DNA of 41,751 nucleotides. It comes from an uncultured Bacteroidota bacterium. GTDB lineage: Bacteria > Bacteroidota > Bacteroidia > Bacteroidales > FEN-979. The stretch covers positions 1-41,751 of the forward strand of contig CALCGJ010000240.1 in the NCBI GenBank assembly GCA_937900965.1, written 5' to 3'. The position numbers were made by a program, and so were the translations under genes. How positions within the stretch are numbered: position 1 is the first letter of the stretch; each line of letters starts with the position of its first letter. The notes below the pieces were generated by a model that was given only the letters and a program-made list of their open reading frames with translations, had not been told where the DNA came from and ran no database searches. Positions 1,710 to 41,751 of this stretch are shown here, in pieces.

Positions 1710-4700
1710 TTAATTCACGCTGATTTCATCCACGAAAATCCAGCATTTCTTTCCCGCTCCCGGATGCCAGTCGGGACAAGTCCCCTGCGTTTTGGCAACA
1801 ACTCTTACGTAACGGGCCTGAACGGAAGGTTCCAGGTCGGCCCATTGTTCCAGGATTGTTGGAGTAAAATCCTTTTGAGAGAATTCGTGGATAGAGATGC
1901 CGGCAGGGGAGAAGTACTCCCCGTCGAGTGAAGTAAAGAATTCTACTTCAGTGGGGAAAAAGATCCAGGAACCGGCATCCTGGAGAAAGCCTGCAGAGAT
2001 CTTTTGCACCTGCTGAACCTCACCGAGATCAACCACTGCATCAAGATCCACCCCTTCATACCCTTGCCATACTCCGGTTTTAAAGTTATCACTCCCTTTC
2101 CGGAAGTCGATAAGGGCAATTTCACCACCTGCAGAATATTGAGGTGCATATTCTGTGTTCAGTTTGATCTTCCTGTTCTTAGGAATTTTCTGAAAGGTAG
2201 ACTCGATAATAAAACTTGGCTCTCCACCCTCTTTTTGCGCGAAAGCCTTCACGATGGTAGATTCATGCAGGGTCAAAGGGCTTGTAAAGAGTTGAAAAGT
2301 ACTATCAGATCCCGGATACCCGATACCTGATGCCGGATGATTTTTAATTCGTAAATCGTCAATCGAATCAATCGGAAATTGGTTTGACCCTCGACCCTCG
2401 ACCCCTGAACCTGTTAGGCTCATGGCTTGATAGAAGATCTTAGCTTCCGGATCGGGAGAGGATAGTTCAATGGTTGTTGAGTCGAAAAAGGCGCTCTCTC
2501 CCTTGCTGATAAAAGGGACTGGTTGAATTAAATGATTCCGGATTCCGGATCCCGGATCCCGGATAAGATCTTGTGTATCATCTTTTGAATATTCCAGATC
2601 AACACCCGATTTTCCCCAATTGTAATTTGGCTCGCTTCCCATTACAAATATCAACTCTCCTCCGTCCATAATGTCTTTGTATCTGATGAAAGGTTCCTCG
2701 TGGTTCTCTCCGTTCAGTTTACAGGATTGGATATAATAGTTTTTATCGCTGAAGTTATGTGCTTTGATTGTAAATGTTTTTCCATTTTCAAGGTTGATCT
2801 TCGAAATAGGGAACGATGGTGTTCCGAGAGCATAAATATCAGAACCCGGAGTTACGGGATAGAAGCCCAGGGCGCTGAATACATACCATGCCGACATTTG
2901 TCCGCAATCTTCATTACCACACAGCCCATCCCGTTGATTCGTGTAAAATTCATTCCTGATCCGATGAACCAACTTCTGAGTTTTCCACGGTTCTCCCACA
3001 TAGTCATACAGGTAGGTCATGTGGTGACTGGGTTCATTGCCATGAGCATACTGTCCGATTAACCCGGTTATATCCGCCTGGTCACGTCCCGATGTCTCAG
3101 TTTTCGCAGAAAACAGGGTATCCAGGTTTCGGATAAAATTCTCTTTTCCACCCATAAGCCCGACTAAACCATATATGTCCTGAGGTACATAGAGGCTGTA
3201 TTGCCATGCGTTTGCCTCGGTATAGTTGAAATTCACCTCATACGGATCAAAGGGAGTGAACCATTGATTATTCAACTTTGCACGCATAAACCCGGTTGAA
3301 GGGTCAAACAGGTTCTTATAGTATTGGGCTCTCTGGATATAGGTCTTATAGTCATCCTTTTTGTCCAGCGCTAATGCCATCTGTGCAATACACCAGTCGT
3401 CGAATGCATATTCCAGCGTTTTGGATACGGATTCGCCCTCTTTATCTCCCGGGATAAACCCTTGATTTATGTAGTATTTCAGACCAAAATGATCCTGCTC
3501 AGCGCTGTTTTTCATCGCTTCAAATGCCTTCCCGGTATCCCAATTACTGATTCCTTTAAGGAATGCATCGGCAATCACCGGAACAGCGTGGTAACCGATC
3601 ATGCAGAACGTCTCATTTGCTGACAGTTCCCATACAGGGAGAAGACCTCCCTCTTCATACTGCCGGATAAAGGTGTTGATAAAGTCGTTGGTTCGTTTCT
3701 GGTCAATGATTGCCAGCAACGGATGTAAGGCACGATATGTATCCCATAACGAGAAAACCGTGTAGTAATCAAACCCCTCTGCCTGGTGAGCCTGAAGATC
3801 CCGCCCGAGGTACTGTCCGTCGACATCCATATAGAGGTTAGGACTTATCATGGCATGATAGAGAGCAGTGTAGAATATCGTCTTCTGGCCGTTGGTCCCA
3901 CCAAACACGTTGATCTTCTGCAATTCGTTTTGCCATGCTGTCCGTGTATCTTGAAGTGTTTTTTCGAAATTCCAGCCTGGTATCTCCGATTCCAGGTTTC
4001 TTCTTGCCCCTTCAATGCTGACGGCTGAGATTCCTACTTTCACCTTGATCTGAGCACCTTCTCCGGTTGGACCAAACCTGAATATCGCCTTGATATCTTC
4101 TCCTGAGGCCTCAGTGCTCTCAGTGATGGCTTCACCGGAGGCTTCAATCAGGATACTCTTGAAGGGTTTAGAAAATTGGATCACAAAATACAACCTTTGC
4201 TCTTTCGCCCAGGCAGTCGAAAATCGGTAACCCTCCACTTCAGCATCTCCAACAACCTTCAAGCCGGATTCAATTACTTTATCTCTGTGTGTTAAATCCA
4301 GGACTATTCCTGGCTGTGTTGTTGCAGGAAATGTGTAGCGGTGAAAACCAGCTCGCTTCGAAGCTGTCAACTCCACACCAATATCATATTTATCAAGCCC
4401 CACCCGGTAAAATCCCGGTGAGGCTTTTTCTGATTCCTGATGAAAAGGGGAGGCATAATCATAATCTGAAAGCCCGACTTCTCCGATTACCGGCATCACC
4501 AAAATATCTCCGTAGTCAGAACATCCGGTCCCACTCAAATGTGTATGGCTGAATCCGTAAATGATGTCATCAGAGGAATGATAAGCCGAGCAACCGTCCC
4601 ATCCTTCCAGGCGTGTGTCGGGACTCACCTGGATCATGCCAAAGGGATAGGTTGCTCCAGGAAATGTATGTCCATGTCCACCAGTGCCGATAAACGGATC

Positions 4701-4796
4701 CACATAATCCGTCACCCTTACCATCTCCTGGCTGTAACAGGTAAAGATGCCCAGAAGCATCAGGCATGCAACTAAAATTCCATTTTTTTTCACCAT
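1710..4796 (-). CDS. GH92 alpha-mannosidase with C-terminal chitobiase-like and F5/8C domains
   Basis: This is an exo-acting, calcium-dependent alpha-mannosidase of family GH92, 1028 residues with signal peptide (MVKKNGILVACLMLLGIFTC). GH92 hallmarks are PFIGTGGHGHTFPGA near residue 34, WELSANETFCMIGYHA near 386, GNEPSHH, and GNEDCGQMSAWYVFSALGFY near 625. The core ends near 740, about the normal family length. It is followed by a chitobiase C-terminal-like small domain (about 760-880) and an F5/8C sugar-binding domain (about 890-1028). Two short-period repeat tracts lie in frame in the extension, at about residues 745-755 and 794-831; the second interrupts the small domain. The gene is 12 nt downstream of the GH2 mannosidase gene, clearly one operon. 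The start codon lies in ATGGTG-type repeat units. Confidence 0.93.
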   Translation of the reverse strand: MVKKNGILVACLMLLGIFTCYSQEMVRVTDYVDPFIGTGGHGHTFPGATYPFGMIQVSPDTRLEGWDGCSAYHSSDDIIYGFSHTHLSGTGCSDYGDILVMPVIGEVGLSDYDYASPFHQESEKASPGFYRVGLDKYDIGVELTASKRAGFHRYTFPATTQPGIVLDLTHRDKVIESGLKVVGDAEVEGYRFSTAWAKEQRLYFVIQFSKPFKSILIEASGEAITESTEASGEDIKAIFRFGPTGEGAQIKVKVGISAVSIEGARRNLESEIPGWNFEKTLQDTRTAWQNELQKINVFGGTNGQKTIFYTALYHAMISPNLYMDVDGQYLGRDLQAHQAEGFDYYTVFSLWDTYRALHPLLAIIDQKRTNDFINTFIRQYEEGGLLPVWELSANETFCMIGYHAVPVIADAFLKGISNWDTGKAFEAMKNSAEQDHFGLKYYINQGFIPGDKEGESVSKTLEYAFDDWCIAQMALALDKKDDYKTYIQRAQYYKNLFDPSTGFMRAKLNNQWFTPFDPYEVNFNYTEANAWQYSLYVPQDIYGLVGLMGGKENFIRNLDTLFSAKTETSGRDQADITGLIGQYAHGNEPSHHMTYLYDYVGEPWKTQKLVHRIRNEFYTNQRDGLCGNEDCGQMSAWYVFSALGFYPVTPGSDIYALGTPSFPISKINLENGKTFTIKAHNFSDKNYYIQSCKLNGENHEEPFIRYKDIMDGGELIFVMGSEPNYNWGKSGVDLEYSKDDTQDLIRDPGSGIRNHLIQPVPFISKGESAFFDSTTIELSSPDPEAKIFYQAMSLTGSGVEGRGSNQFPIDSIDDLRIKNHPASGIGYPGSDSTFQLFTSPLTLHESTIVKAFAQKEGGEPSFIIESTFQKIPKNRKIKLNTEYAPQYSAGGEIALIDFRKGSDNFKTGVWQGYEGVDLDAVVDLGEVQQVQKISAGFLQDAGSWIFFPTEVEFFTSLDGEYFSPAGISIHEFSQKDFTPTILEQWADLEPSVQARYVRVVAKTQGTCPDWHPGAGKKCWIFVDEISVN
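2306..2416. repeat. Composite heptad tract inside the GH92 gene
   Basis: Three 7-bp families follow each other inside the coding sequence: GATCCCG/GATACCC/GATACCT/GATGCCG, then AATTCGT/AAATCGT/CAATCGA, then TTGACCC/TCGACCC/TCGACCC. The frame stays open and the tract encodes about 37 residues between IFYQAM and TFQLFTSPLTLHES. That position is a loop of the chitobiase C-terminal-like domain. Confidence 0.8.
2534..2564. repeat. Heptad tract (GATCCCG family) inside the GH92 gene
   Basis: Four units (GATTCCG, GATTCCG, GATCCCG, GATCCCG) encode the IRDPGSGIRN segment in the linker after the GH92 catalytic core. Confidence 0.8.
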
Positions 4797-7370: not shown

Positions 7371-7387
7371 TAATTTTGACAAAATTA
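7371..7387. promoter_or_regulatory. Perfect dyad with back-to-back -7 boxes between GH2 and galK
   Basis: TAATTTTG and CAAAATTA face each other across a single A, an 8+1+8 perfect inverted repeat. Each arm matches TAnnTTTG on its own strand. The minus-strand box is 24 nt from the GH2 start and the plus-strand box is 60 nt from the galK start. It could be two overlapping divergent promoters, an operator, or both. Confidence 0.5.
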
Positions 7388-7438
7388 ATTGATTTTTTTT
7401 ACTACTTTTCATTATTTTCGGACCATAATAACTCCAGC

Positions 7439-8602
7439 ATGGACCTACAAGCACATTTAGAACTGTTTTTTAAGCACTTTGGTAAACCGGATCAGAACCC
7501 TTCAATATATTTCGCACCAGGCCGTGTAAATCTAATTGGAGAACATACCGATTACAACGGTGGCTTTGTATTGCCTTGTGCTCTGCAATACGGGACATAC
7601 CTGATCATCCGGCCGATTACCGAACCTAAGATACGGCTCGTTTCAACCAATATGGATTATCAAACTGAAATTTCTTTAACCGATGACATAATAAGAATTG
7701 AAGATCAATGGGTAAATTATCCTCTGGGTGTTGTGGACCAGTTCCTCAAACATGATGTTCCGATTGGTGGAATGGAGTTGCTTTTCTCCGGAGATATTCC
7801 CAGTAATGCCGGATTATCATCATCGGCCTCCATTGAAATGGTAACTGCGTTTGCCCTCAACGATCTGACAGGGTCAAATTTTTCAATGATTGACCTGATT
7901 AAATTGTCTCAGAAAGCAGAAAATCAGTTTGTTGGAGTTAACTGTGGCATCATGGATCAGTTTGCTGTGGGGATGGGGGAGAAGGATCATGCCATTTTCC
8001 TGAATTGCCGGACACTCGAGAACAAGATGGTTCCTTTTCGTCTTGACGGGATCAGCATGGTGGTTGCAAACACGAATAAACAAAGGGGACTGGCCGACTC
8101 GAAATACAATGAACGTGTAGCAGAGTGTCAACTGGCTGTAACATATTTAAGTGATTTGTTTGATATAAGCCAGCTTAGTGAGATCAGCTTCATGCAGTTT
8201 TACAAAATACAGGATCAAATCCCGGATGAGGTTATTCGTCGTCGTGCACGGCATGTTATTTCTGAAAACCAACGGGTTCTGAATTCAGTCGCCTGCCTTT
8301 GGAACAACAACATTCTGGAATTCGGTGCTTTGATGAATGCCTCTCACGAATCGTTACGAGATAATTATGAAGTAACCGGATTTGAGCTTGACACCCTGGT
8401 TGCTGAGGCACAAAAAATACCTGGAGTCATAGGATCCCGGATGACAGGTGCCGGATTTGGCGGTTGTACCGTAAGCCTTGTCATGAATGAATCCTTGGAT
8501 CAATTCGTCGGAGAGGTTGGCAAAAGGTACAATCAAAAGACAGGCTTGAATGCAGATTTCTATGTTGCAGAAGCCTCAGACGGAGTGAAAGAAATCCTGT
8601 AA
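7439..8602 (+). CDS. galK: Galactokinase
   Basis: Phosphorylates galactose to galactose-1-phosphate, the entry to the Leloir pathway, in the cytoplasm. The 387 residues from the ATG at 7439 match the family length. The longer frame from 7376 adds 21 atypical residues and is not preferred. GHMP-kinase motifs are all present: the galactokinase signature GRVNLIGEHTDYNGGFVLP near residue 25, the phosphate loop NAGLSSSASIE near 120, and GSRMTGAGFGGCTVSLV near 335. It is divergent from the mannosidase operon and convergent with the aldose epimerase. That placement suggests both mannose and galactose are released from the substrate glycan, though this link is an inference. Confidence 0.96.
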   Translation: MDLQAHLELFFKHFGKPDQNPSIYFAPGRVNLIGEHTDYNGGFVLPCALQYGTYLIIRPITEPKIRLVSTNMDYQTEISLTDDIIRIEDQWVNYPLGVVDQFLKHDVPIGGMELLFSGDIPSNAGLSSSASIEMVTAFALNDLTGSNFSMIDLIKLSQKAENQFVGVNCGIMDQFAVGMGEKDHAIFLNCRTLENKMVPFRLDGISMVVANTNKQRGLADSKYNERVAECQLAVTYLSDLFDISQLSEISFMQFYKIQDQIPDEVIRRRARHVISENQRVLNSVACLWNNNILEFGALMNASHESLRDNYEVTGFELDTLVAEAQKIPGVIGSRMTGAGFGGCTVSLVMNESLDQFVGEVGKRYNQKTGLNADFYVAEASDGVKEIL

Positions 8603-8684
8603 GGGCGGGTTCATAACCCGCCCCTACAAACCAGGTCATCCCAGGGCGGGTTCATAACCCGCCCTTACAAACCAGGTCATCCCA
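8603..8684. repeat. Two tandem copies of a 41-bp palindromic (REP-like) element
   Basis: Each 41-bp unit starts with a perfect hairpin (GGGCGGGTT, loop CAT, AACCCGCCC) followed by about 20 nt of spacer. The copies at 8603-8643 and 8644-8684 differ at a single base. They begin just after the galK stop and fill the gap to the convergent epimerase gene. A bidirectional transcription stop is plausible, although no U-run follows the hairpins. REP elements mobilised by RAYT transposases have this form, but no such transposase is in the window. Confidence 0.85.
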
Positions 8685-13290: not shown

Positions 13291-14345
13291 TATTCCAGAA
13301 GAATTTTCTCGAATTGATCCAGTATCACCTCCAGGTTATAAATATTCCTGGCGTGCTGGTAGCCATTTTCCCCCATGATCCGTAGTTGATCAGGTGAGGA
13401 TAATAAGGAAATTGTTTTTACAGCTAACGCATTGGTGTCAAATGGCTTGACAAAACTGATTACGGGTTCCTGACACAAATTTTCTTTCAAAGAATCGAGC
13501 TCGAAAGCTACAATCGGAAGTCTCAAACTCATGGCCTCAAGTCTGGCAAATGAGAACCCTTCCCAACGCGAAGGTATCATCAACAGGGAGCAACCTGATA
13601 ATGTTTCAGTGCAATATTCAAGAAATCCTGTGAACCGGATCTCTCCATTCATCCCCAATCGTTCCGATAACGCATGCAGTTTCCCAGCCTCAGGACCATC
13701 TCCGATAACCACTAACTCTGCTCCCGGAATTTCTTTGCGAATGATATCAAATGCCTGGATTGCCATATCCACCCCCTTTTCCCTGGAGAGTCGACCAAGA
13801 ACTGCGATGCGGGAAGCAGTATAATCAGCCTTGATATGACGACTGTTCAAATGAATCCCATTTGGGATGATCACCTGATATTTGGGGAGATCCTGACTGA
13901 AGTCCCTCCTGAGCTGACTCATTACAAATGAGGAATTAGCTATCAGGTGCGTTATGTTTCGGATTAATAATCTGTTCAGGAAGTGGGCTTTGACTCGTTC
14001 GGCATTTCCTCTGCGGTATATAATTTTAGGTACCCCTATCAGCCGACTTGCAAAGATGGCCAGCTTCAGTTCATTAGACCCATTGAGTATGATACAGTCT
14101 GGCTGTACTTTCCTGATTATACTGATAATCTTCAGATGTTTAAAAGGGTTGGCAAACGATCGGTTGGTAATCCTTAGTGTGAAAAAGGGAATGTCTGTTT
14201 TCTTTAGCTTTCTGCTCAGATATGAATCGGAATTTGTTAGCATAGTTACTGCGAATCCACGTTTCGATAATTCAACAGCATGCTGGTAGTGCCAGAATTC
14301 ACCACCACCCCACGAGATCGATAAGTTTACAAAAAGAAGTTTCAA
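13290..14345 (-). CDS. GT4-family glycosyltransferase, TTG start
   Basis: A GT-B fold retaining glycosyltransferase of 351 residues. The N-terminal domain begins MKLLFVNLSISWGGGEFWH. The donor-binding half has VLGRLSREKGVDMAIQAF near residue 185, VVIGDGPE, and the family motif SRWEGFSFARLEAMSLRLPIV near 260. The start codon is TTG; no ATG gives this conserved N-terminus, and a perfect -7 box lies 16 nt upstream. The gene is coupled to the deacetylase and divergent from a GT2 gene. The set looks like part of a lipopolysaccharide or exopolysaccharide pathway. Confidence 0.92.
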   Translation of the reverse strand: MKLLFVNLSISWGGGEFWHYQHAVELSKRGFAVTMLTNSDSYLSRKLKKTDIPFFTLRITNRSFANPFKHLKIISIIRKVQPDCIILNGSNELKLAIFASRLIGVPKIIYRRGNAERVKAHFLNRLLIRNITHLIANSSFVMSQLRRDFSQDLPKYQVIIPNGIHLNSRHIKADYTASRIAVLGRLSREKGVDMAIQAFDIIRKEIPGAELVVIGDGPEAGKLHALSERLGMNGEIRFTGFLEYCTETLSGCSLLMIPSRWEGFSFARLEAMSLRLPIVAFELDSLKENLCQEPVISFVKPFDTNALAVKTISLLSSPDQLRIMGENGYQHARNIYNLEVILDQFEKILLE

Positions 14346-14368: not shown

Positions 14369-14401
14369 GAATAAAATAGTTCAGATCTTTTGTCTATTGG
14401 A

Positions 14402-14409
14402 TACATTTG
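14402..14409 (+). promoter_or_regulatory. -7 box for the GT2 gene
   Basis: TACATTTG matches TAnnTTTG fully, 20 nt upstream of the ATG at 14429. It supports that start over the frame opening at 14390, which lies upstream of the box. Confidence 0.45.
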
Positions 14410-14428
14410 TAATCGAAACCCAAATCAA

Positions 14429-15199
14429 ATGATTCAATTATCTGTTGTTATTATCACGTTGAATGAAGAGAAGAACATTCGCCGATGCATTGAATCTATT
14501 GTTAGGGTTGCTGATGAAATCGTGATAGTGGATGCCGGTTCAACAGATAATACCAGGCGTATTGCAGAATCATTTGAAAACGTCAAATTCCTGGAACACC
14601 CTTTCAAACATTTTGGCAGTCAGAAAATGGTTGCAGTCGAAAATGCAGGATATCCACATATTCTGTCAATTGATGCCGATGAAGTGCTGTCGGTGGAATT
14701 ACAGAATGCAATCCTGAAGATCAAGGACAATTGGGAAGCGGATGCATACAAACTCCTCCGTATTACCCGGTTCTACGGAAAATGGCTCCGGCACTACAAC
14801 TGGCATCCGGAATTGATTCTCAGGCTTTTCGACAGAAGAAAAGGAAACTGGAACAACGCTCCTGTCCATGAAAAGATCGAAATGCAACCAGATACTGTCA
14901 TAGGAATTCCGGAAGGTTACCTGTTACACTATTCCTATACAGTTGAAGGTCGGACGCGTGACTATGCCAAAATCAAGGCAAGGAAGTTATTTGATGAAGG
15001 GAAAACAGTAAGTAAGTGGAGAATCCTGTTTGCCCCTCCTGCCAGATTTCTTAAAGTCCTGATTTTCAAGAGAGGATTTCTGAACGGCTTTTATGGCCTG
15101 GCATGGAGCGTTATATCGGCTCACGATTGCTTCCTTACCTATTTTTATCTCTGGACGTTGCACCGGGGAGATGAACAGGAGCCACGTTCGGTTAGTTAA
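14429..15199 (+). CDS. GT2-family glycosyltransferase (WaaE/KdtX-like)
   Basis: A 256-residue GT-A glycosyltransferase. It begins IQLSVVIITLNEEKNIRRCIESI and contains VDAGSTDNT near residue 37, the metal-binding SIDADEVLS near 78, and NAPVHEKIE near 145. The order of motifs and length match the WaaE/KdtX group that adds a hexose to lipopolysaccharide core. The transferred sugar cannot be read. The gene ends by overlapping the convergent M23 gene by 8 nt. Neighbouring GT4 and deacetylase genes point to the same envelope glycan. Confidence 0.9.
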   Translation: MIQLSVVIITLNEEKNIRRCIESIVRVADEIVIVDAGSTDNTRRIAESFENVKFLEHPFKHFGSQKMVAVENAGYPHILSIDADEVLSVELQNAILKIKDNWEADAYKLLRITRFYGKWLRHYNWHPELILRLFDRRKGNWNNAPVHEKIEMQPDTVIGIPEGYLLHYSYTVEGRTRDYAKIKARKLFDEGKTVSKWRILFAPPARFLKVLIFKRGFLNGFYGLAWSVISAHDCFLTYFYLWTLHRGDEQEPRSVS

Positions 15200-20350: not shown

Positions 20351-21058
20351 ATGAAACGAATCATTCTGACTCTCATTGTTGTTACGTTTGGATTAATTCT
20401 ATCAGCTCAAACAAACCCTGATAGCGTTGAGCCCAGGTCAAACCATGATAGGTTCCGTATTGCTCTATCCGGCGGACCTGGATATCGCCTTGGAATTACC
20501 CGGAAAGATGTGTCCCCCGACCTTCTCCCTTATTTAAATCAAACTCATCTTGGTTTTGTTATGAATGTAGGGGCAAGCTATTACTTTCACCGAAGATGGG
20601 GAGCAGGTGTTAACTATAAATTGTTGTATTCCAAAACTTCCCTTGATACGTATATGACGCTTACCAACGGAACTTCCGGATATGGGGAGATAAGTGACAG
20701 GATTCAGACGCATTTTATCGGTCCCTCCGTTCACAGACGGTTTTCCAGCCCGATTCATCAACGAACATACCTGATACAGCTTTCGGCCGGTTACCTGGCG
20801 TTCCGCGACAGAACCAAAACGTTACACAAGGAAATCTTTTACAGAGGGCATACCCTGGGACTCGTTTGTACAATCAGCATCGACTTCCGGATTTCTAAAA
20901 CCCTGGTGATAGGAGTCGAGTGTGCATTTCTCTATGCTGTCCTCTCCAAATACACCAAAGTAGAGGGGAGTGCAGTCACCCTGGTTGAGCTCGAAAAGCC
21001 CTATCTGAGCAACCAGTCCTCTGTTGACCTGGCACTTGGCTTCCGTTTCTGGAAATAG
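20351..21058 (+). CDS. Predicted outer-membrane beta-barrel protein
   Basis: I do not recognise a named family. The 235 residues start with a signal peptide ending LSAQT near residue 21. The rest is a succession of amphipathic strands with aromatic ends (FRIALSGGPGYRLG, HLGFVMNVGASYYFHRRWGAGVNYKLLYS, and others). It finishes SVDLALGFRFWK, a C-terminal Phe/Trp-rich strand typical of small outer-membrane barrels such as the PorT/OmpW-like groups. A function cannot be given. It lies between the divergent phosphoesterase and the SSS symporter (60-nt gap, with a separate -7 box), so it is probably a single-gene unit. Confidence 0.7.
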   Translation: MKRIILTLIVVTFGLILSAQTNPDSVEPRSNHDRFRIALSGGPGYRLGITRKDVSPDLLPYLNQTHLGFVMNVGASYYFHRRWGAGVNYKLLYSKTSLDTYMTLTNGTSGYGEISDRIQTHFIGPSVHRRFSSPIHQRTYLIQLSAGYLAFRDRTKTLHKEIFYRGHTLGLVCTISIDFRISKTLVIGVECAFLYAVLSKYTKVEGSAVTLVELEKPYLSNQSSVDLALGFRFWK

Positions 21059-26591: not shown

Positions 26592-26648
26592 GTATTATAA
26601 AACTTTTTTAAAATGCAAAGTTCTAAAAACTTATTACAATATGGCCAA

Positions 26649-26689
26649 ACCCTGATCCCTAATCCCTGATCCCTGATTTCTGATCGCTG
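26649..26689. repeat. Heptad tract (GATCAGG family) at the MGH1-like stop
   Basis: On the minus strand the units read GATCAGA, AATCAGG, GATCAGG, GATTAGG, GATCAGG. They encode the tail DQKSGIRD and supply the TAG stop of the upstream glycosidase gene. Confidence 0.8.
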
Positions 26690-28824
26690 TTTTCTTCAAT
26701 AAGCACCTTCGCCATTATTGCATCCCATATGTAATTTGATGGCGAGTTAAGTGTCTCATTATCGGGGCTATATGATTCCCAAAAATTATGATTCTTTTTC
26801 AATTGCGTTACCACGCAATCAACCATTTTACCAGCCAGTTGATGGGCAAGGGAGTCATAGCCGTAATTTCGCAGACCATCGTAAACCATGTAATCCCAAA
26901 GTAACCACACCGGGCCGTTCCATTTACAACAGTAATCTACGTTCGGACTGTACCACGGATCATCAGCTGCCAGGGTAGGGACCCCATATCTTCGCCAGAA
27001 TTTGGTCGTATCTGAAAGAGTCTTAACAAGTTGGGCTGCACGGTCGGTGGAGGCTGCTTCCGCCCATAAGGCCAGGAAACCGATGATCTCTAGCCTCCTG
27101 AGATCACGAGTCATGAAATACCATCCGTGATCGTCCCGGTTCACCGAATAGTAAAATCCTGTTGAGTCATCCCACATCCTCTCATTTACAAGTTGGGAGG
27201 TTTTTTCAGCTTTCTCTAGCCAAATCCGGGCTTCATCCTGTTTCCCTAGGGTTTTGGCCATTTTAGCCAGAGTGCGTTCCTCCTTAATCACCATCAGTGT
27301 TAAATCCAGGCATTCAAGTTCGTCGGATATATCTTCTTTATCGACATCGAGGTACCGCTCGGCAGATACTTGAAAAACAGCATTATACCAATCTCTTACA
27401 TTTTCAATCAGGCCATATGGCCCCCATTCGAAGGTACCATCTTGGTCAGTATCCCGATTCGCAATAATCCAATTGATATACCTTGTTCCGGAATTGTATG
27501 CATCTTCAAGGAAAGTCTTGTCTTTGCTTACCTGGAAAATCTCCCAGTTGATCCAACTAAAGAAAGGGGCAGAGGTGGTGGCCATTTTTTTATGAGGATA
27601 GTCCTGTAAGCCTCTGGGTCCGTGCCGATAAGCTATCAAGCCATCCTCACGTTGCTGCTCCATGTAGACACGTTGAGACCCTTCCGCTGATTTTGGATCC
27701 ATGTATACATAGGATAGCATGCTGAGAGATTCATGCAGTACCTGGTGACCGTGGCCCCATCCCCAGAGCGGATTCCGGCTGAAAACATAGAAATTATGTG
27801 TTGTCTTTCCGGTAGGAGGGTACATCGATCCCCTCGCCAGGTTGAATGCACCGATGTAAATTAATTTTTCATCACTGGATTTAAACCGGATTCTTGGAAT
27901 CCTGGAGAAGAGGATAAGGTTATCATCAACAAAGCTTCTGAGGTGTATTTCTTTCATCCTCCCGACCTCCTCCTGAAGCAACCCAATATCTTCACTTTGT
28001 GCCTGTATACCACGAATATATCTGAAATTCGTTCGTTCACCTGACCTTAATCTTTTCTTTAACTGAATGGCTGTATAATCAACATAACCAGAATGTAACA
28101 CATTCAATTTATCGCTATGATACGGAGAATAATAGTCCGTTTTAATCTGTGTATAGAAGCCTGCCATGTTACCCATATAACCCCCGTAAGAATCATTTTT
28201 CCGGTTGGTTGTGAAGATATCCCTGACCCGGGTGGGGTATCCATATTCTGGCTTCAGGCTGCTGATCAACCGGTATAGAGATTCGTTGCGGTGCAGGATA
28301 TAACTCTGGTGAAGACTATCATATCCAATAATCTCCAGGGAGTCATTTCCAAGTTCAAGAATTGGATAAGCCACAATTTCATGAGGGATTTCATCAAGAT
28401 TCCTGACCTCCATATCCACCATCGCAACAGCCGAGCTGTAAACGAAAAAGGTTTCCCGCACCCGTATTCCCCTGAACGGCTCATACTCTAATATGGCCAA
28501 ATCAGGGAAAGAGAATATCACAACGGGTTTCTTAAAGTATTCCCCGATACTTCGTATTACCACCTCATCTACCTTCCAGATACAAAACATCGATCCTGAC
28601 TGATCAGAAGAGTAAGTAACAGGCAGATTATCAGAGTAATAGTCTATTTTGTACGCATTATCGCCATATAGTTTAGAGCGTTTCATGGCAGCAGCATATG
28701 TTGTATAAAGAGGATCATCTCCTGTTGCATCTAACCTGAGATAATCTTCAACAGGCTTGAGGTTCTGGGAATTGAGAACCCATGGAAATGCAACACACAG
28801 GATGATCATTATTCTTAAAATCAT
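26659..28824 (-). CDS. Six-hairpin glycosidase, MGH1-like (GH63 clan)
   Basis: A secreted (alpha/alpha)6-barrel glycosidase of 721 residues; the ATG at 28824 gives a signal peptide (MILRIMIILCVAFPWVLNSQ). An N-terminal beta-domain (to about 300) precedes the barrel. Barrel motifs resemble mannosylglycerate-hydrolase-like GH63 proteins: FEWGPYGLIENVRDWYNAVF near 465, RRYGVPTLAADDPWYS near 615, KWNGPVWLLWDYMVYDGLRNYG and FWESYSPDNETLNSPSNYIWDA. Substrate is unknown; glucosides or mannosides are most likely. The last eight residues (DQKSGIRD) and the stop codon come from a heptad tract. A TATCTTTA box lies 19 nt upstream, so the gene may have its own promoter inside the cluster. Confidence 0.75.
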   Translation of the reverse strand: MILRIMIILCVAFPWVLNSQNLKPVEDYLRLDATGDDPLYTTYAAAMKRSKLYGDNAYKIDYYSDNLPVTYSSDQSGSMFCIWKVDEVVIRSIGEYFKKPVVIFSFPDLAILEYEPFRGIRVRETFFVYSSAVAMVDMEVRNLDEIPHEIVAYPILELGNDSLEIIGYDSLHQSYILHRNESLYRLISSLKPEYGYPTRVRDIFTTNRKNDSYGGYMGNMAGFYTQIKTDYYSPYHSDKLNVLHSGYVDYTAIQLKKRLRSGERTNFRYIRGIQAQSEDIGLLQEEVGRMKEIHLRSFVDDNLILFSRIPRIRFKSSDEKLIYIGAFNLARGSMYPPTGKTTHNFYVFSRNPLWGWGHGHQVLHESLSMLSYVYMDPKSAEGSQRVYMEQQREDGLIAYRHGPRGLQDYPHKKMATTSAPFFSWINWEIFQVSKDKTFLEDAYNSGTRYINWIIANRDTDQDGTFEWGPYGLIENVRDWYNAVFQVSAERYLDVDKEDISDELECLDLTLMVIKEERTLAKMAKTLGKQDEARIWLEKAEKTSQLVNERMWDDSTGFYYSVNRDDHGWYFMTRDLRRLEIIGFLALWAEAASTDRAAQLVKTLSDTTKFWRRYGVPTLAADDPWYSPNVDYCCKWNGPVWLLWDYMVYDGLRNYGYDSLAHQLAGKMVDCVVTQLKKNHNFWESYSPDNETLNSPSNYIWDAIMAKVLIEENSDQKSGIRD

Positions 28825-28887
28825 GGAACAGGGTTTCGTGGTGTAAAGATACAGCATCTCGAGCTATCCAGTTTCGGAATCATCTTA

Positions 28888-30468: not shown

Positions 30469-33400
30469 TTAGTTATGAAATATCAAAGTCAACTCTTTCC
30501 GTGAATATTTTTCATTTGCTACGGCAAAATCAACTAAAATCTTAGTTATACAGCCATTTCTGCCGATGATATGTGCATCCGGAGTGGCCTCAATAACTGG
30601 GTTATAGCTCCAAACCGAAAGTGTGTCAGAACTCCCAGCCATACCTTCAAGGTTAATGATGTATTGATTTCCTCTCAGGGTAGCATCAATAATCCTCATC
30701 CCTTCAGCCTGGTCTCCGGGAGCCGGGTAGGGGATAAGAGGAAGAACTGAGATCCCACCTGCAACTTCCACCTCAATTGTGGCAATCCCGGTAATTATAA
30801 AGCTCATATGCAGTGAGATAAACCTGGAAGTTGTAAAGGTAGCGAAGGGATATGCTTCGCCATTCAGTAAAATCCTGGTTATTTTGGTTCCCGGAAAAAG
30901 AGCCGGCATGAAATTTATGGTAACAGCCTGGTTTCCTGTCTTTTCAAAGTGCCATGTAAATGCAGATGAATCCCGTTTATATGCCAGGTCCACAAACTGA
31001 TTTCCCAGCCGGATTCTTTCCACAGTGAGCCAATCCCAATCTGCAGGCAGTCGAGGAGAGATGTATAACGTGTTATTGGGAGCATCTGCTTCAATACCAA
31101 GCATCCCTTCTATGGCCGGCTGCAAAACCATAGTCTCACTCCAACACTGGTGTGGACAAACCCCTGAAGGCTGATACTCAGCGCCATTCAGCACCTCTTC
31201 CACAAATCCCAACCCCCAGTTGCGGTAAACATTCAGATTGTTCATGATATGGGTAAAACCCTGGGTATAATTCCCGTATTCGTATTCTGCCAACGCTGTC
31301 CACCCGGTGAAAAGGGGCCAGACACTTCCGTAATGGTATCCGGTTGGCTTAAACATCGGGTTGTCTTCCCCAATAATGCGGGTACCCCAATTTGTTGAAA
31401 AAGCGTTAGAAGCGTATTTATCAAGCAGATTACGCATCTTATATTTGTCTGTAATGCCAAAGTATGCAGGAACAGTTGGAAGGATGGTTTGATCAGTACG
31501 TTGGGATCCATCTTTATTCCTGCCAAAGGAATAAAACTGTTCATAACCGTTCCAGAATTTCTCATCGATCAGGTCTCTCACAATTTTTGCCTCCTGTATA
31601 TAAAGCTCTTCAGAAGGATCGTTAACGACCTGTGCCATGGTAGCGGCCCCTTCCAAAGCAGCTACCCAACAGCCTGTCAGGTAAAAAGAGGAGTGAGATC
31701 CAAAAAGTTGCCCTCCTTCCACCCAGCCATGACCTACATTGGTGTTTTCGATCAGGTGATCCTTATCCGTATCAGTTGAAAAACAGAATGTTATTGCCTT
31801 TTTTATTCCAGACCAATTCTCCTGAATAAACGATGTATCCCCTGAATGGAGGAGATATCTTCCAGCAAGGATGATGAAAAGGGGTGTGGCATCAGATGCA
31901 TCATAATGGATGACACCTGAAGTTGTGGCTTCATGAAAGATCTTCCCGCTGAGGTCCTGGTACTTTAAATAGAATTCCAGATTTTTCTTAACCTTATCAA
32001 AGTCGCCGATATCTAACAAAGCAAATCCACTCCATTGACCATCACGGCCAAAATACCATGCGTAACCAGGTCTGCCATTTACCTTCTGGGCTCCATCCCA
32101 GCCACTGCGGGTGGTTCCGTAGCCTGCAACAAGACCGGACCCCATTCCCGGAGTGGTAACAAAGAACCTGTCGGTTCCAATCAATGCCCATCTATACCCT
32201 GCATTAAAATTACTATCAGGAGAGGTGATCATCAGGTTATTAGCAAAAACCTCCTCCGCATGCTTCTGTGATCTCTGAAAAATATCCATCGGGTTAAGGA
32301 TCGCCTCGTCAAAAATTGCTGTCGTCTCTTTCAATCCTTCAGCACTTGAAGCAAAAACAAAATCCAGAGATTCTCCGCCGTTCATTGAATAATGCACCTG
32401 GGCATCCGCCAGTAAATCTCCCCCTTTTTTGGATATGGCCCTGTACGGTATTTTGTTCCCGCCTGCCATAACTGCAAAATCACCTGATTTGTTCATAAAA
32501 TAAAATGCCTGATATGAATGGTCCCAACCATGACAAAGAGACACAGTAGTAGCTGCCGGATAAGGCCACATTATCCGTAAATTAGTCATGAAATGGATTG
32601 ATAAAACTGCTGGTTCTGCACCATCCCATGTATAATGAACAACACCAACAGGTTTTGTGGGATGGGCTGCGACAACTTCTGTAAGTAAACCTGAATAAAG
32701 ATGATAATAACGGATAAAGCAATCGGGACGGATCTCTATTTCCGGACTCAGCCTGCTTAACCATATCGTATTTTCAGATGACGGATTGGTTCCAATGTGA
32801 CCTGAATTGTCAGGACCATTGATAGTTATACTTACACTATAGTCACGCAATGACATGAACGGATGGGTCCATACCTCCTCAATCCCACCATTTTCAGCTC
32901 CCATGATCAGGATCCCTTCACCCGCTGCTTCACAATAGTTATTGGTGGCAGTTCTGGGTGAGAAAGCAACCTTAGGTGGTTTTAGGTCCCAGGTAACAGC
33001 TTTAGGAATTACTTTGAGCTTTGCACCCCGGATATCGGTTTTAGCCCGACACTGAACAACGGTGTCAGGGGAGTAGTCCCAATAGAAACGAGGCCCTGCT
33101 TCCAGTTTACCGGCAAGATAATCCAGGGCATTTTTTGAAAAGGTTTCCAGATGCAGCCGGTTTTCATTCGGTTGGGAGAATAGAGTATATGCTCCAACTC
33201 CAAGCAGTTTACCCTTGCCAACATCATATTCAACAACCATCTTCGAATCTTCCCTGAAGAAGATGTAATCCCAGTCAATCGCAACTACCTTTCCTTTTTC
33301 AGGAACTGTATCTCCAAAGAAGCCGTTGACCCGGAGTGTAAGATCCTTGATCGGCTTATAGATGTATGCTCCCCCATATATGCCCGTGAAAACAGGATGC

Positions 33401-33981
33401 TCCCGGAAGGCATGGAAACCCAGTTTTCGTCCATATCCCTCATCAACTGATGATTTCTGCCTCACTGATGGGATTGTAGTTTCTATCCCGAGCAGATTGA
33501 TATACCTAAAGGCATCAAGTGTAAGCAGTATTTTACCCCCCTTTTCAAGATATTCACGAAGCAGTTTAATTACCTTACCATCAGACTCATCCGTTGTGAA
33601 GTTTGAAGTATCCGACCTGTGAAACCAAACTACTGCAGCATCCTGTAACTGCTTTGGATGCCTCTTAAGTTCATGAAACGTACTGTATTTCAACGAATAA
33701 CCTTCTAATTCCCGAATAAAATCCATTGCAGCCAGAAGCTCTGGATCTGAAGAGATCAAAGGCTCTTGTCCTACCATTAATATAAAAGTGGCATCATCAT
33801 TTTCCCTACCCTCCGCCTTCGTCCCTCGTCTTTCTTCCCTCGTCTCTCGTCCTTCATCCTTCATAATTTGAATACTGTGTCGTCTTGCGTCCTTGCCTTT
33901 AATTCCCTGTGATATAGCAGAATAGCCACTAAAAAATAACAGCGCGAATAGCAGGGTGTGTAGTTTCCAGTTCAAGATCAT
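30469..33981 (-). CDS. Large six-hairpin glycosidase (amylo-1,6-glucosidase-like) with N-terminal amidotransferase-like domain
   Basis: A secreted 1170-residue protein. Order: signal peptide (to about 25), a repeat-encoded charged segment (28-61), an alpha/beta domain resembling the ThuA/GATase1-like fold (about 62-310, with EYLEKGGKILLTLDAF), a beta-sandwich (about 330-600), and an (alpha/alpha)6 barrel (about 610-1010). The barrel has WYFGRDGQWSGFALLD, HYDASDATPLFIILAGRYLL, GWVEGGQLFGSHSSFYLTGCWVAALEG and CWSETMVLQPAIEGMLG, reminiscent of glycogen-debranching GH133-type domains. The substrate is unknown. It overlaps the HAD gene by 4 nt (ATGA), a coupled pair. Confidence 0.75.
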   Translation of the reverse strand: MILNWKLHTLLFALLFFSGYSAISQGIKGKDARRHSIQIMKDEGRETREERRGTKAEGRENDDATFILMVGQEPLISSDPELLAAMDFIRELEGYSLKYSTFHELKRHPKQLQDAAVVWFHRSDTSNFTTDESDGKVIKLLREYLEKGGKILLTLDAFRYINLLGIETTIPSVRQKSSVDEGYGRKLGFHAFREHPVFTGIYGGAYIYKPIKDLTLRVNGFFGDTVPEKGKVVAIDWDYIFFREDSKMVVEYDVGKGKLLGVGAYTLFSQPNENRLHLETFSKNALDYLAGKLEAGPRFYWDYSPDTVVQCRAKTDIRGAKLKVIPKAVTWDLKPPKVAFSPRTATNNYCEAAGEGILIMGAENGGIEEVWTHPFMSLRDYSVSITINGPDNSGHIGTNPSSENTIWLSRLSPEIEIRPDCFIRYYHLYSGLLTEVVAAHPTKPVGVVHYTWDGAEPAVLSIHFMTNLRIMWPYPAATTVSLCHGWDHSYQAFYFMNKSGDFAVMAGGNKIPYRAISKKGGDLLADAQVHYSMNGGESLDFVFASSAEGLKETTAIFDEAILNPMDIFQRSQKHAEEVFANNLMITSPDSNFNAGYRWALIGTDRFFVTTPGMGSGLVAGYGTTRSGWDGAQKVNGRPGYAWYFGRDGQWSGFALLDIGDFDKVKKNLEFYLKYQDLSGKIFHEATTSGVIHYDASDATPLFIILAGRYLLHSGDTSFIQENWSGIKKAITFCFSTDTDKDHLIENTNVGHGWVEGGQLFGSHSSFYLTGCWVAALEGAATMAQVVNDPSEELYIQEAKIVRDLIDEKFWNGYEQFYSFGRNKDGSQRTDQTILPTVPAYFGITDKYKMRNLLDKYASNAFSTNWGTRIIGEDNPMFKPTGYHYGSVWPLFTGWTALAEYEYGNYTQGFTHIMNNLNVYRNWGLGFVEEVLNGAEYQPSGVCPHQCWSETMVLQPAIEGMLGIEADAPNNTLYISPRLPADWDWLTVERIRLGNQFVDLAYKRDSSAFTWHFEKTGNQAVTINFMPALFPGTKITRILLNGEAYPFATFTTSRFISLHMSFIITGIATIEVEVAGGISVLPLIPYPAPGDQAEGMRIIDATLRGNQYIINLEGMAGSSDTLSVWSYNPVIEATPDAHIIGRNGCITKILVDFAVANEKYSRKELTLIFHN
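33802..33898. repeat. Heptad tract (CCCTCGT family) inside the six-hairpin gene
   Basis: The units CCTTCGT, CCCTCGT, CTTTCTT, CCCTCGT, CTCTCGT, CCTTCAT, CCTTCAT are 7 bp each. On the coding strand they give a charged segment of about 30 residues rich in Arg, Glu and Lys just after the signal peptide. The frame stays open. Confidence 0.8.
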
Positions 33982-37056: not shown

Positions 37057-37758
37057 TTATTGTAGCAAGGATCCAGGATCCTGCATCCAGGATTCTCTTC
37101 TTGTTGGAAATTTGATCACTTGTTGAAGTCTATCCAGGTATTCCGAACGGGGGATCAGTGTGGCGCCCATCCGCAGGAAGTGGTTTGTTTCAACCTGACA
37201 ATCAATAAATTGGAAATCCCATTTCAGGAGCAGCTGAACCAGGTGATAGAGAGCGACTTTTGATGCATTTGGTTGTGTGAAGAACATGCTCTCTCCAAAA
37301 AATGCTTTCCCAAGAGATATCCCATACAGGCCGCCAACGAGGTTTCCCTTGTTATAACAGGCAACTGAATGTGCAAACCCTTTCAGGTGGAGATTTGTAT
37401 ACCCTTCGATAAACTCCTCACTTATCCAGGTATCTGGTTCATGGGCACGTTTGATCCTGGCACATTGGCTGATAACAGCTTCAAAATCAGTATCGAACTT
37501 AATCTCAAATGTTTCAGCCCGCACAGTCCGTTCAAGTGATTTTGAGATCTTTAATTTATCGGGAAACAGCACCAACCTGGGATCAGGTGAGAACCAGTAG
37601 GGTTCTCCGTCATGGACAAACCAGGGAAATATTCCGGAAGCATAGGCGTTTAACAACCGATCAACAGAAAAATCACCTCCAATAGCAATCAAGCCATCCT
37701 CTTCAGCCTCAGTGGCAGGAGGGAATACAGGTTCTTTCGGTAGCAAATAAACAGGCAA
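37057..37758 (-). CDS. aat: Leucyl/phenylalanyl-tRNA--protein transferase, TTG start
   Basis: Adds Leu or Phe to proteins with N-terminal Lys/Arg, marking them for ClpAP (N-degron pathway). The 233 residues show the family order: MPVYLLPKEPVFPPATEAEEDGLIAIGGD, PYWFSPDPRLVLFPDKLKISKSL near 53, GLYGISLGKAFFGESMFFTQPNASKVAL near 145 and FIDCQVETNHFLRMGATLIPRSEY near 190. The conserved N-terminus fixes the start at a TTG codon; no upstream ATG fits. The final tail (MQDPGSLLQ) and its stop are heptad-tract sequence. A GAAGTTA tract lies directly upstream in the leader. Confidence 0.96.
   Translation of the reverse strand: MPVYLLPKEPVFPPATEAEEDGLIAIGGDFSVDRLLNAYASGIFPWFVHDGEPYWFSPDPRLVLFPDKLKISKSLERTVRAETFEIKFDTDFEAVISQCARIKRAHEPDTWISEEFIEGYTNLHLKGFAHSVACYNKGNLVGGLYGISLGKAFFGESMFFTQPNASKVALYHLVQLLLKWDFQFIDCQVETNHFLRMGATLIPRSEYLDRLQQVIKFPTRRESWMQDPGSLLQ
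37068..37092. repeat. Heptad tract (GGATCCA family) encoding the Aat tail
   Basis: Units GGATCCA, GGATCCT, GCATCCA and GGATTCT lie inside the aat coding sequence and encode the MQDPGS end. They are the inverted form of the facing tract at 36996-37045. Confidence 0.75.
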
Positions 37759-39267: not shown

Positions 39268-40074
39268 ATGAAAGACAAAATCGTCATCATCACCGGCGCA
39301 ACCTCGGGAATTGGCAAAGCCCTGGCTTTTGAATGTGCCCGACGGGGAGCGAAACTGTCTCTGGCCAGCCGCAATAAAGAACAATTAAAGGCAATTGAGG
39401 AGGAGTTAAGAAAAAATGGGACGGAGGTGATTTCGACTGAAACCGATGTTACCAGAGAAGAAGATTGTAAGCGATTTATATCAAATACCATAAGCCAATT
39501 CAACCGGATTGATGTGTTGATCAACAATGCTGGAATCTCCATGAGAGCTTTGTTCGAAGAGGTAGACCTTGATGTGTTGAAAAGGGTAATGGATGTCAAT
39601 TTCTGGGGCGCAGTATACTGCACGAAATTTGCCTTGCCGGAGTTGTTGAAAGCAAAAGGCTCTGTTGCAGGTGTCTCTTCTATTGCCGGTTACAAAGGAC
39701 TGCCAGGCCGCACAGGCTATTCAGCATCCAAGTTTGCCCTGCAGGGGTTTCTGGAAGTGATTCGGATTGAAAACATGAAAAAAGGACTACATGTATTGAT
39801 CGCCTGTCCGGGCTTTACCAGCTCCAACATCCGGAATGCGGCTCTGGCAAAGGATGGCAGCAACCAGGGGGAATCGCCACGCGACGAAGCCAAAATGATG
39901 ATGCCGGAAGAGGTAGCAAGGCAAATCTGTGATGCCATTGAAAAGCGTAAACACCGGCTTACTATGACCACGCAAGGTAAAATGACAGTACTCTTGAACA
40001 AGTTCTTCCCGAAGTTCATGGATAAGATGGTATATAGCCATATGGCGAAGGAGCCGGATTCCCCCTTTAAGTAA
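39268..40074 (+). CDS. Short-chain dehydrogenase/reductase
   Basis: A 268-residue NAD(P)-dependent SDR. It has TGATSGIGKALAFECARRGAKL at residues 8-29, NNAGISM near 90, and the catalytic pair Tyr151 and Lys155 in YSASK. The Ala-Arg-Arg-type region after strand two suggests NADP use. The pattern and length match the DltE/YqjQ-like group with a C-terminal amphipathic stretch (MTVLLNKFFPKFMDKMVYSH). The substrate is unknown. It is distinct from the SDR at 10093 and stands alone, divergent from the aminotransferase. Confidence 0.9.
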   Translation: MKDKIVIITGATSGIGKALAFECARRGAKLSLASRNKEQLKAIEEELRKNGTEVISTETDVTREEDCKRFISNTISQFNRIDVLINNAGISMRALFEEVDLDVLKRVMDVNFWGAVYCTKFALPELLKAKGSVAGVSSIAGYKGLPGRTGYSASKFALQGFLEVIRIENMKKGLHVLIACPGFTSSNIRNAALAKDGSNQGESPRDEAKMMMPEEVARQICDAIEKRKHRLTMTTQGKMTVLLNKFFPKFMDKMVYSHMAKEPDSPFK

Positions 40075-40076
40075 AG

Positions 40077-40289
40077 TACGATTTACGATTAACGATTTAC
40101 GATTGAAAGAAAAGTACGATTAACGATTTACGATTTACGATTGGATTGCCGATTGACGATTTCAAATGTACAATTTATTTGAGATTAAAAATAATTCGGA
40201 AATTGTAAATCCAAAATCAAAAATGCAATTGTAAATCGTTAATTGTAAATTGTAAATCCCTGTTATCGTTAATCGTACCTCGTAAATCA
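40077..40289. repeat. Gene-free stretch filled with TACGATT heptads
   Basis: No gene is visible. The units GTACGAT, TTACGAT, TAACGAT and variants run from just after the SDR stop, continue as AATTGTA/AATCGTT forms, and reach the ATPase stop codon at 40287. Confidence 0.85.
40114..40223 (+). repeat. 110-bp direct repeat, left copy, flanking the ATPase gene
   Basis: It starts with heptads and continues with non-repetitive sequence (CCGATTGACGATTT, ATGTACAATTTATTT, CCAAAATCAAAAA). The copy at 41641-41751 has the same order and orientation, with about 7 mismatches over the first 85 nt. Confidence 0.8.
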
Positions 40290-41610: not shown

Positions 41611-41640
41611 TGCCAGAAATATGGAAAACAATAAAAATAA

Positions 41641-41751
41641 GTACGATTTACGATTTACGATTTACGATTGTAATGCCGATTGACGATTTTAGATGTACAA
41701 TTTATTTCAGATTTGAAAATAAATCGTACCTCGTAAATCCAAAATCAAAAA
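41641..41751 (+). repeat. 110-bp direct repeat, right copy
   Basis: Matches 40114-40223 in the same orientation, through the shared final CCAAAATCAAAAA. It runs to the end of the window, so its true end is not visible. Confidence 0.8.

Follow-up and report, generated by a model that had tools for sequence, protein, structure and literature searches.

Tandem repeats with 7- and 8-bp units lie in frame in the loops of a GH92 glycosidase and in interdomain linkers of conserved proteins of a Bacteroidales genus and its family

Genes, and essential genes above all, are expected to be cleared of simple repeats whose unit length is indivisible by three. In cyanobacteria, tandem heptamers of several families are known as short tandemly repeated repetitive (STRR) sequences. 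Here we analyze a stretch of 41,751 nucleotides (the window) from an uncultured Bacteroidota bacterium (Bacteroidales, FEN-979; contig CALCGJ010000240.1 of assembly GCA_937900965.1), in which the gene for a GH92 family glycosidase carries two tracts of such repeats. Related tracts were followed through the genus (g1) and family (f1) of the bacterium, both labels being those supplied by the genome search. Repeats with units of 7 or 8 bp (7/8-bp repeats) were found to fill the interdomain linkers of DNA polymerase I (PolA) and NAD synthetase (NadE) in a large share of the family members examined, varying between related species. If this reading is true, it would describe a route by which non-coding repeat DNA is turned into protein, a natural experiment on insertion-tolerant protein sites, and a lead toward a process copying short tandem tracts around these genomes.

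The closest described repeats at the DNA level are long simple sequence repeats (LSSR) with heptanucleotide units (Mrazek et al., 2007, as given in PMC4679880) and the TAACTGA direct repeats (MacGregor, 2015; PMC4679880). In the available part of the latter paper, Bacteroidetes are described as having multi-heptamer assemblages, nearly always between genes, with the intergenic regions of close relatives free of them, and mobile carriage of heptamer repeats is raised as an idea. The sets reported there are mostly intergenic; the one mentioned within a gene is a set of two in purC, and tolerance between protein modules is suggested. Compared with that portion of the source, our tracts share tandem 7-bp units, many dispersed locations and a patchy distribution over taxa including Bacteroidetes and Cyanobacteria, while they differ in that 8-bp units are common, many families occur per tract, and tracts recur in frame in the interdomain linkers of conserved genes. 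A TAACTGA-containing array is present in the window's genome too (L120:63-117). The heptamers of Xanthomonas and Nostoc (GGGAATC / GGGGA(C/T)T) are likewise dispersed and tandem, with few units and many copies near the ends of open reading frames (ORFs), as seen in the available text of PMC4692102; our tracts are similar in these respects and differ from that description by the many families involved and by their location in interdomain linkers. Rickettsia palindromic elements (RPE; Ogata, 2000, 2002) are short dispersed repeats found in frame in conserved genes, and an RPE-bearing guanylate kinase is reported to be translated and active (PMC10969869, PMC2229807, both available in part). In-frame insertion into conserved genes (GH92, a second glycosidase, PolA and NadE) is common to RPE and the present tracts. 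However, RPE are palindromes of about 105-150 bp with long stem-loops and terminal inverted repeats, whereas our tracts show neither the stem-loop fold nor the fixed size (additions to GH92 range from none to 34 aa), and, unlike RPE as there described, they replace one another by family at one site. Set against these partially available sources, the present case is one of heptanucleotide repeats in the form of the DNA and of RPE in effect, distinguished by many interchangeable 7/8-bp families turning over at one linker. Titles and abstracts of the literature searched, which hardly covers subscription papers, yielded no account of tandem heptamers recurring in protein linkers, which is weak evidence of absence.

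The GH92 gene of the window (Table 1) has Pfam matches to the N-terminal and catalytic domains and to an F5/8C domain; a chitobiase/hexosaminidase C-terminal domain is matched over half its length, with a score below the cut-off. Period-7 runs within it cover positions 2312-2339, 2384-2411 and 2531-2567. In the terms of the LSSR definition (tandem units of 5-11 nt beyond chance), the window as a whole contains 13 period-7 and 5 period-8 runs and at most one run of each remaining period from 2 to 12; since neither period 7 nor period 8 occurred in ten simulated sequences having the window's first-order base statistics, a chance origin of the tracts was ruled out. The initial annotation had reported two in-frame tracts at about residues 745-755 and 794-831 of the protein, and we place them at residues 744-755 and 793-835. 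It also held that the larger tract divides the chitobiase-like domain, and the Pfam profiles agree: in a tract-free relative (L007) the CHB_HEX_C_1 match is nearly complete (profile positions 5-63 of 67, 49 bits), while in the window's protein it covers positions 34-65 only (20 bits, under the Pfam cut-off of 22). The ORF stays open through both tracts, which are in frame, and the same preservation of the frame, already claimed for GH92, was seen in other genes. Three repeat families are indeed strung together in the larger tract; its middle block (about 2337-2381), however, is not the plain AATCGTA array it was taken for, as no period-7 run was detected there. An AlphaFold2 run on residues 691-1028 with a 40-sequence alignment gave a mean predicted local distance difference test score (pLDDT) of 85, with values below 50 solely at residues 733-738, 740-748 and 797-830. 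In this model the stretches of low predicted confidence coincide with the two tract-bearing loops.

For comparison of the loops, 61 genomes were searched and, together with added stretches, gave 35 rows; counted among these are the window itself, the G002 gene in two pieces, and a single copy (L033) belonging to another family. Among the congeners of the window's genome (G000), G005 offers no clear orthologue, the gene of G002 is divided between two contigs, and that of G003 is represented by a C-terminal piece. Runs of 7/8-bp repeats occur in all five same-genus copies and, over the whole gene, in none of the 28 family copies of other genera. In all of these 28, loop 1 has 14 aa, and in 27 of them the loop-2 region (window residues 789-838) has 16 aa, loop 2 of the remaining copy (L006) being masked by N. 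Both loops of the copy from another family measure 16 aa, and a 7-bp run lies in a different part of its gene. Judged from these alignments, the GH92 tracts are evidently in-frame additions relative to other genera.

The prediction that homologs should lack the inserted residues was therefore borne out in other genera but failed in sister species. Loop 1 has 27 aa filled with ATCCGGG heptamers in the window's genome, G001 and G002, so that the tract is of equal length in two sisters, and 13 aa with another family, AATTACG, in G004; as the GH92 tree places G004 within the genus, it is simplest to assume that the family at loop 1 has changed. Between the window and G001 and G002, 8/12 and 9/12 residues are identical at positions 744-755, compared to 27/37 and 28/37 in the adjoining segment 756-792. 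Normal conservation of the same residues in close homologs, which had been named as an observation that would speak against mobile tracts, is thus nearly seen for loop 1 in these two genomes, and this tract was therefore inherited by descent and is older than those species. It is not seen for loop 2, where the region has 50 aa in the window's genome, 31 in G002, 30 in G001 and 16 in G004, with all fillings different. In G003, the stretch between the two tracts is missing in frame and just the last part of the chitobiase-like domain is kept, for which a deletion between the two tracts would account.

A second tract-bearing gene of the window codes for a glycosidase-like protein with heptamers in the linker after its N-terminus. 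All five genus genomes in which the gene was found (G002 gave no match) have a tract in this linker, composed of GGACGAG in the window's genome, G001 and G004, of AATTACG in G003 and of ATCCGGG in G005, and 7/8-bp runs are present in none of the 26 copies of other family genera; one further sequence (L235) ends before the linker. In a copy from another genus (L215), the linker holds a different, palindromic-looking insertion, which is more in keeping with a permissive site than with a site-specific one. The repeat family occupying one and the same site differs between related species. The tracts of GH92 lie in loops, and in other genes they are found in interdomain linkers.

Two such genes encode PolA and NadE. 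In the window's genome, the PolA tract (residues ~331-383) is situated between the 5'-3' exonuclease and 3'-5' exonuclease domains, and the NadE tract (~254-267) between the CN-hydrolase and NAD-synthase domains. The PolA linker has a 7/8-bp run in 5/5 copies of the genus, 15/26 other copies of the family and 0/22 copies from outside the family (excluded were the fragment L384, partial matches in G017, G024 and G025, G018 without a match and, outside the family, the fragments G042 and G050). The rest of PolA was free of such runs in all three groups (13.5, 69.8 and 58.0 kb scanned). For the NadE linker the figures are 5/6, 13/29 and 1/9, respectively (L355, a fragment, and G020, with a chance-level match, were excluded, and 9/24 genomes were taken outside the family). 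The repeat families in both linkers vary between species. A chance origin of these runs was ruled out as well, because codon-shuffled linkers almost never gave one: none arose for PolA, and for NadE the rate was 0.0003 in one group and zero in the others. The genus figures are biased, since both genes were selected for their tracts in the window's genome; those for other genera are less biased, still favouring permissive sites. In the NadE linkers of G000 and G004 (L125, L333), further in-frame stretches, IVIARSEATRQ and SLSLRGTERRG, which we take to be repeat-like, stand beside the heptamers, and the NadE linker may take in several repeat classes.

The wider distribution of the tracts was assessed in 253 kb of the window's genome, comprising the window and 20 other stretches with mechanically called ORFs. 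There were 39 period-7, 24 period-8, 2 period-9, 1 period-6 and no period-5 runs; 28 of the 66 runs of periods 6-9 are located wholly within ORFs of at least 100 aa, 23 outside and 15 straddle an ORF edge. Fifteen ORFs outside the window have a fully coding run, and each of the ten scanned has Pfam matches. Among them are PolA, NadE, apolipoprotein N-acyltransferase (Lnt), an exonuclease VII fragment and an alpha-2-macroglobulin with several tracts. A further gene of the MutS family (L261, G000:C276, frame +2; PF00488 match), presumably MutS2 by its motif, has an in-frame heptamer-type tract flanked by NLKLLAS and LNGAMLFD within the ATPase domain, and a second tract upstream, judged by eye. 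In stretches sampled non-randomly, by contig number or from large contigs, there were 90 runs of 7/8-bp repeats in 447 kb for the genus, counting the window region; the figures per 400 kb were 26 for the other genera of the family and 18 beyond the family. One outside genome, G060, accounts for 13 of the last 18, and AATCGTA 18-mers are present in 30 of the 31 other family genomes as well as in the genus, so that a division into a tract-rich family and a tract-free rest is too simple. The G060 runs, all of period 7, lie in one 20-kb stretch (L435), 11 of them outside ORFs, and belong to other families (ATCAACC, ACACAAA).

We consider it probable that the GH92 tracts are in-frame copies of 7/8-bp tandem tracts scattered in the genus and family, generated by block copying plus selection and not by stepwise slippage. 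New tract DNA would be copied as a block from another tract of the same genome, through microhomology-guided template switching or gene conversion in the course of replication or repair. Selection would purge insertions that break the frame, add a stop or hit the folded core. Disordered loops and linkers would thereby serve as sinks where tracts come in, replace one another and are shortened time and again. The mark expected of such an insertion filter is a depletion of stops on the coding strand, and of 47 PolA and NadE runs, 21 contain a stop triplet in any frame on the coding and 32 on the other strand (0.83 versus 2.83 per tract), while 37 and 35 of 45 intergenic-like tracts contain one on the two strands.

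Copying is favoured over independent growth because units recur, linker units match tracts of the same genome, a core sequence is dispersed, and a block order repeats. First, 13 of the 39 heptamer families occur at more than one place in the 253 kb, one of them at five, while uniform draws gave a mean maximum of 1.8. Second, 58 PolA and NadE linker units were compared with tracts elsewhere in the same genome, in 21 genomes and with 5000 permutations, loci chosen by tract similarity (L242-L270) being excluded. Exact matches were found for 11/58 units (permutation of genomes: mean 1.8, reached in 0/5000), and matches with one mismatch for 23/58 (mean 7.5, 0/5000; within groups 12.2, 1/5000). Third, the non-tandem core AATCGAATCAATCGGAAAT of loop 2 is present, with at most one mismatch, at 3-19 dispersed places in each of the six genus genomes; it was also found at 9 places in G015 and at 4 in the remaining 54 genomes combined, and a reversed control pattern was found at none. 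Finally, the order seen in loop 2, an AATCGTA core block followed by CCCTCGA heptamers, is repeated at four other loci, in G003 and G004. Two loci of G003 (L274, L294) have a common palindromic-looking stretch (CTCCCGAGTACTCGGGAT) inside the AATCGTA block, and composites may therefore be copied as units.

Several observations weigh against block copying. The case for it relies on comparison between species, in which neither an insertion event nor an enzyme was seen. PolA and NadE were picked for having tracts in the window's genome, and runs are missing from 11/26 PolA and 16/29 NadE copies of the other genera of the family. Just 2 of the 26 runs in the sampled stretches of other family genera are nearly or wholly within ORFs (13 are wholly outside and 11 lie across an ORF edge), and G060, a heptamer-rich genome, is outside the family. 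Unit sharing is weaker when permutation is done within groups (genus and non-genus; mean 4.1, reached in 23/5000), falls to 6/51 without G000 (reached in 12 and 82 of 5000), and comes without any exact linker-unit match in 14 of the 21 genomes, mostly those with few background tracts sampled. A genome-specific bias of slippage could also yield such sharing.

Local replication slippage, with each tract grown in place from a chance seed and no DNA received from elsewhere, seems to us rather unlikely, although it is the view given for heptanucleotide repeats in the available part of PMC4679880 (citing Mrazek, 2007). It would explain why periods 7 and 8 alone are common in the 253 kb, and slippage with point mutation would produce the network of one-base neighbours that joins 32 of the 39 heptamers (random mean 19.4) and 24 of the 27 octamers (random mean 4.1). 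However, unrelated families occupy one orthologous site, unit sharing is higher within than between genomes, and the order of blocks in loop 2 is found again at other loci. Moreover, one added 7-bp unit would throw PolA or NadE out of frame, so tracts there would have to arrive and change as frame-keeping blocks. The initial annotation had argued that the tracts can move or grow into genes; moving is the better supported part, given the different families at one site and the match of linker units to tracts of the same genome, and growth the less supported one, as adding heptamers one at a time would disrupt the reading frame of genes that are needed. Loss of mismatch repair as a cause was rejected, since five of the six genus genomes have the main MutS match and the sixth, G001, which lacks it, is 69% complete. 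One MutS_V match was found in each of G002-G005, and at least two in all but one of the 17 genomes searched from the rest of the family; the second MutS gene in G002-G005 may be lost, broken or unassembled.

A broader form of the copying scheme is conceivable, but we hold it to be doubtful. In it, dispersal would follow an internal ruler 7 or 8 nt long, and tandem tracts would be written into DNA breaks or stalled forks all over the chromosome from a changing, genome-specific library of units; protein linkers would serve as the record of this process, and non-coding repeat DNA would keep rewriting those of essential enzymes.

It is improbable that the tandem tract is the body of a miniature element (a miniature inverted-repeat transposable element or one resembling repetitive extragenic palindromes, REP) moved by a transposase. 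Dispersal of a fixed core of about 35 bp to 3-19 places per genus genome would fit such an element. In G015, and there alone, the core (AATCGAATTAATCG) forms inverted pairs resembling small-element ends at the two loci read, with starts 166 bp (L273) and 127 bp (L286) apart. Against this, the composition and length of the tracts are variable and their ends not fixed. No palindrome was found, the three in-gene stretches of the window folding ordinarily (z of -0.53, -1.35 and -1.36). The REP transposase was rejected as the mover: a search limited to this transposase (PF01797) gave no match in G000-G003, one in G004 and three weak ones in G005.

Still less probable is the retention of the repeats because flexible, fast-varying linkers aid or regulate the proteins. 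PolA linkers average 73 aa in the genus and 81 aa in the family's other genera, against a shorter 49 aa outside the family, and tracts are much more frequent in them than in the sampled stretches. At one place, however, the peptides are unrelated and of various lengths, the genes have unrelated functions, and the family copies without a run counted above speak against selection for the repeats themselves. Loops of ancestral origin lost elsewhere, or an assembly artefact, can hardly be credited: all genomes compared are drafts, most of many contigs, but the GH92 loops are constant (14 and 16 aa) in every assessable family copy of other genera, and separate genomes have intact frames with different in-frame tracts at identical sites.

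Table 1. Tract-bearing genes and repeat tracts of the window
Feature	Position	Strand	Remarks
GH92 family glycosidase, tract host gene	1710..4796	-	1028 aa; GH92N, GH92, chitobiase-like, F5/8C
Tract 1, residues 744-755 (LIRDPGSGIRNH), ATCCGGG heptamers	2532..2567	-	period-7 run 2531-2567
Loop 1 entire, residues 729-755, 27 aa	2532..2612	-	vs 14 aa in 28/28 same-family copies of other genera
Insertion in loop 2 (residues 793-835), flanked by strands of the chitobiase-like domain	2292..2420	-	pLDDT <50 at 797-830
Loop 2 block 1, TCGAGGG (CCCTCGA) heptamers	2382..2411	-	
Loop 2 block 2, AATCGTA-type, holds the non-tandem core AATCGAATCAATCGGAAAT	2337..2381	-	coding strand minus
Non-tandem core AATCGAATCAATCGGAAAT	2361-2379	plus	inside loop 2 block 2
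Loop 2 block 3, ATCCGGG/ATCAGGT-type heptamers	2307..2339	-	
In-gene tract, GGACGAG heptamers, residues 40-61 of glycosidase-like ORF 30472-33981	33799..33864	-	linker after signal-peptide-like N-terminus
Tract forming the C-terminal tail of ORF 26662-28857	26647..26689	-	G004 counterpart: related tract, same end
Intergenic TACGATT tracts, heptamer type of loop 2 block 2	40074..40145	.	
Intergenic TACGATT tract	41636..41673	.	

Other features were noted in the window. For ORF 37057-37758, the apparent counterparts in G002, G003 and G005 have their C-terminus within or close to tract sequence. Directly past the end of ORF 7376-8602, a 41-bp GC-rich repeat is present in two copies matching at 97% (8602-8684). 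Four ORFs (13293-14345, 14390-15196, 20351-21055 and 40290-41525) have no match of 50% identity in the syntenic stretches of five sister genomes and are possibly recent arrivals.
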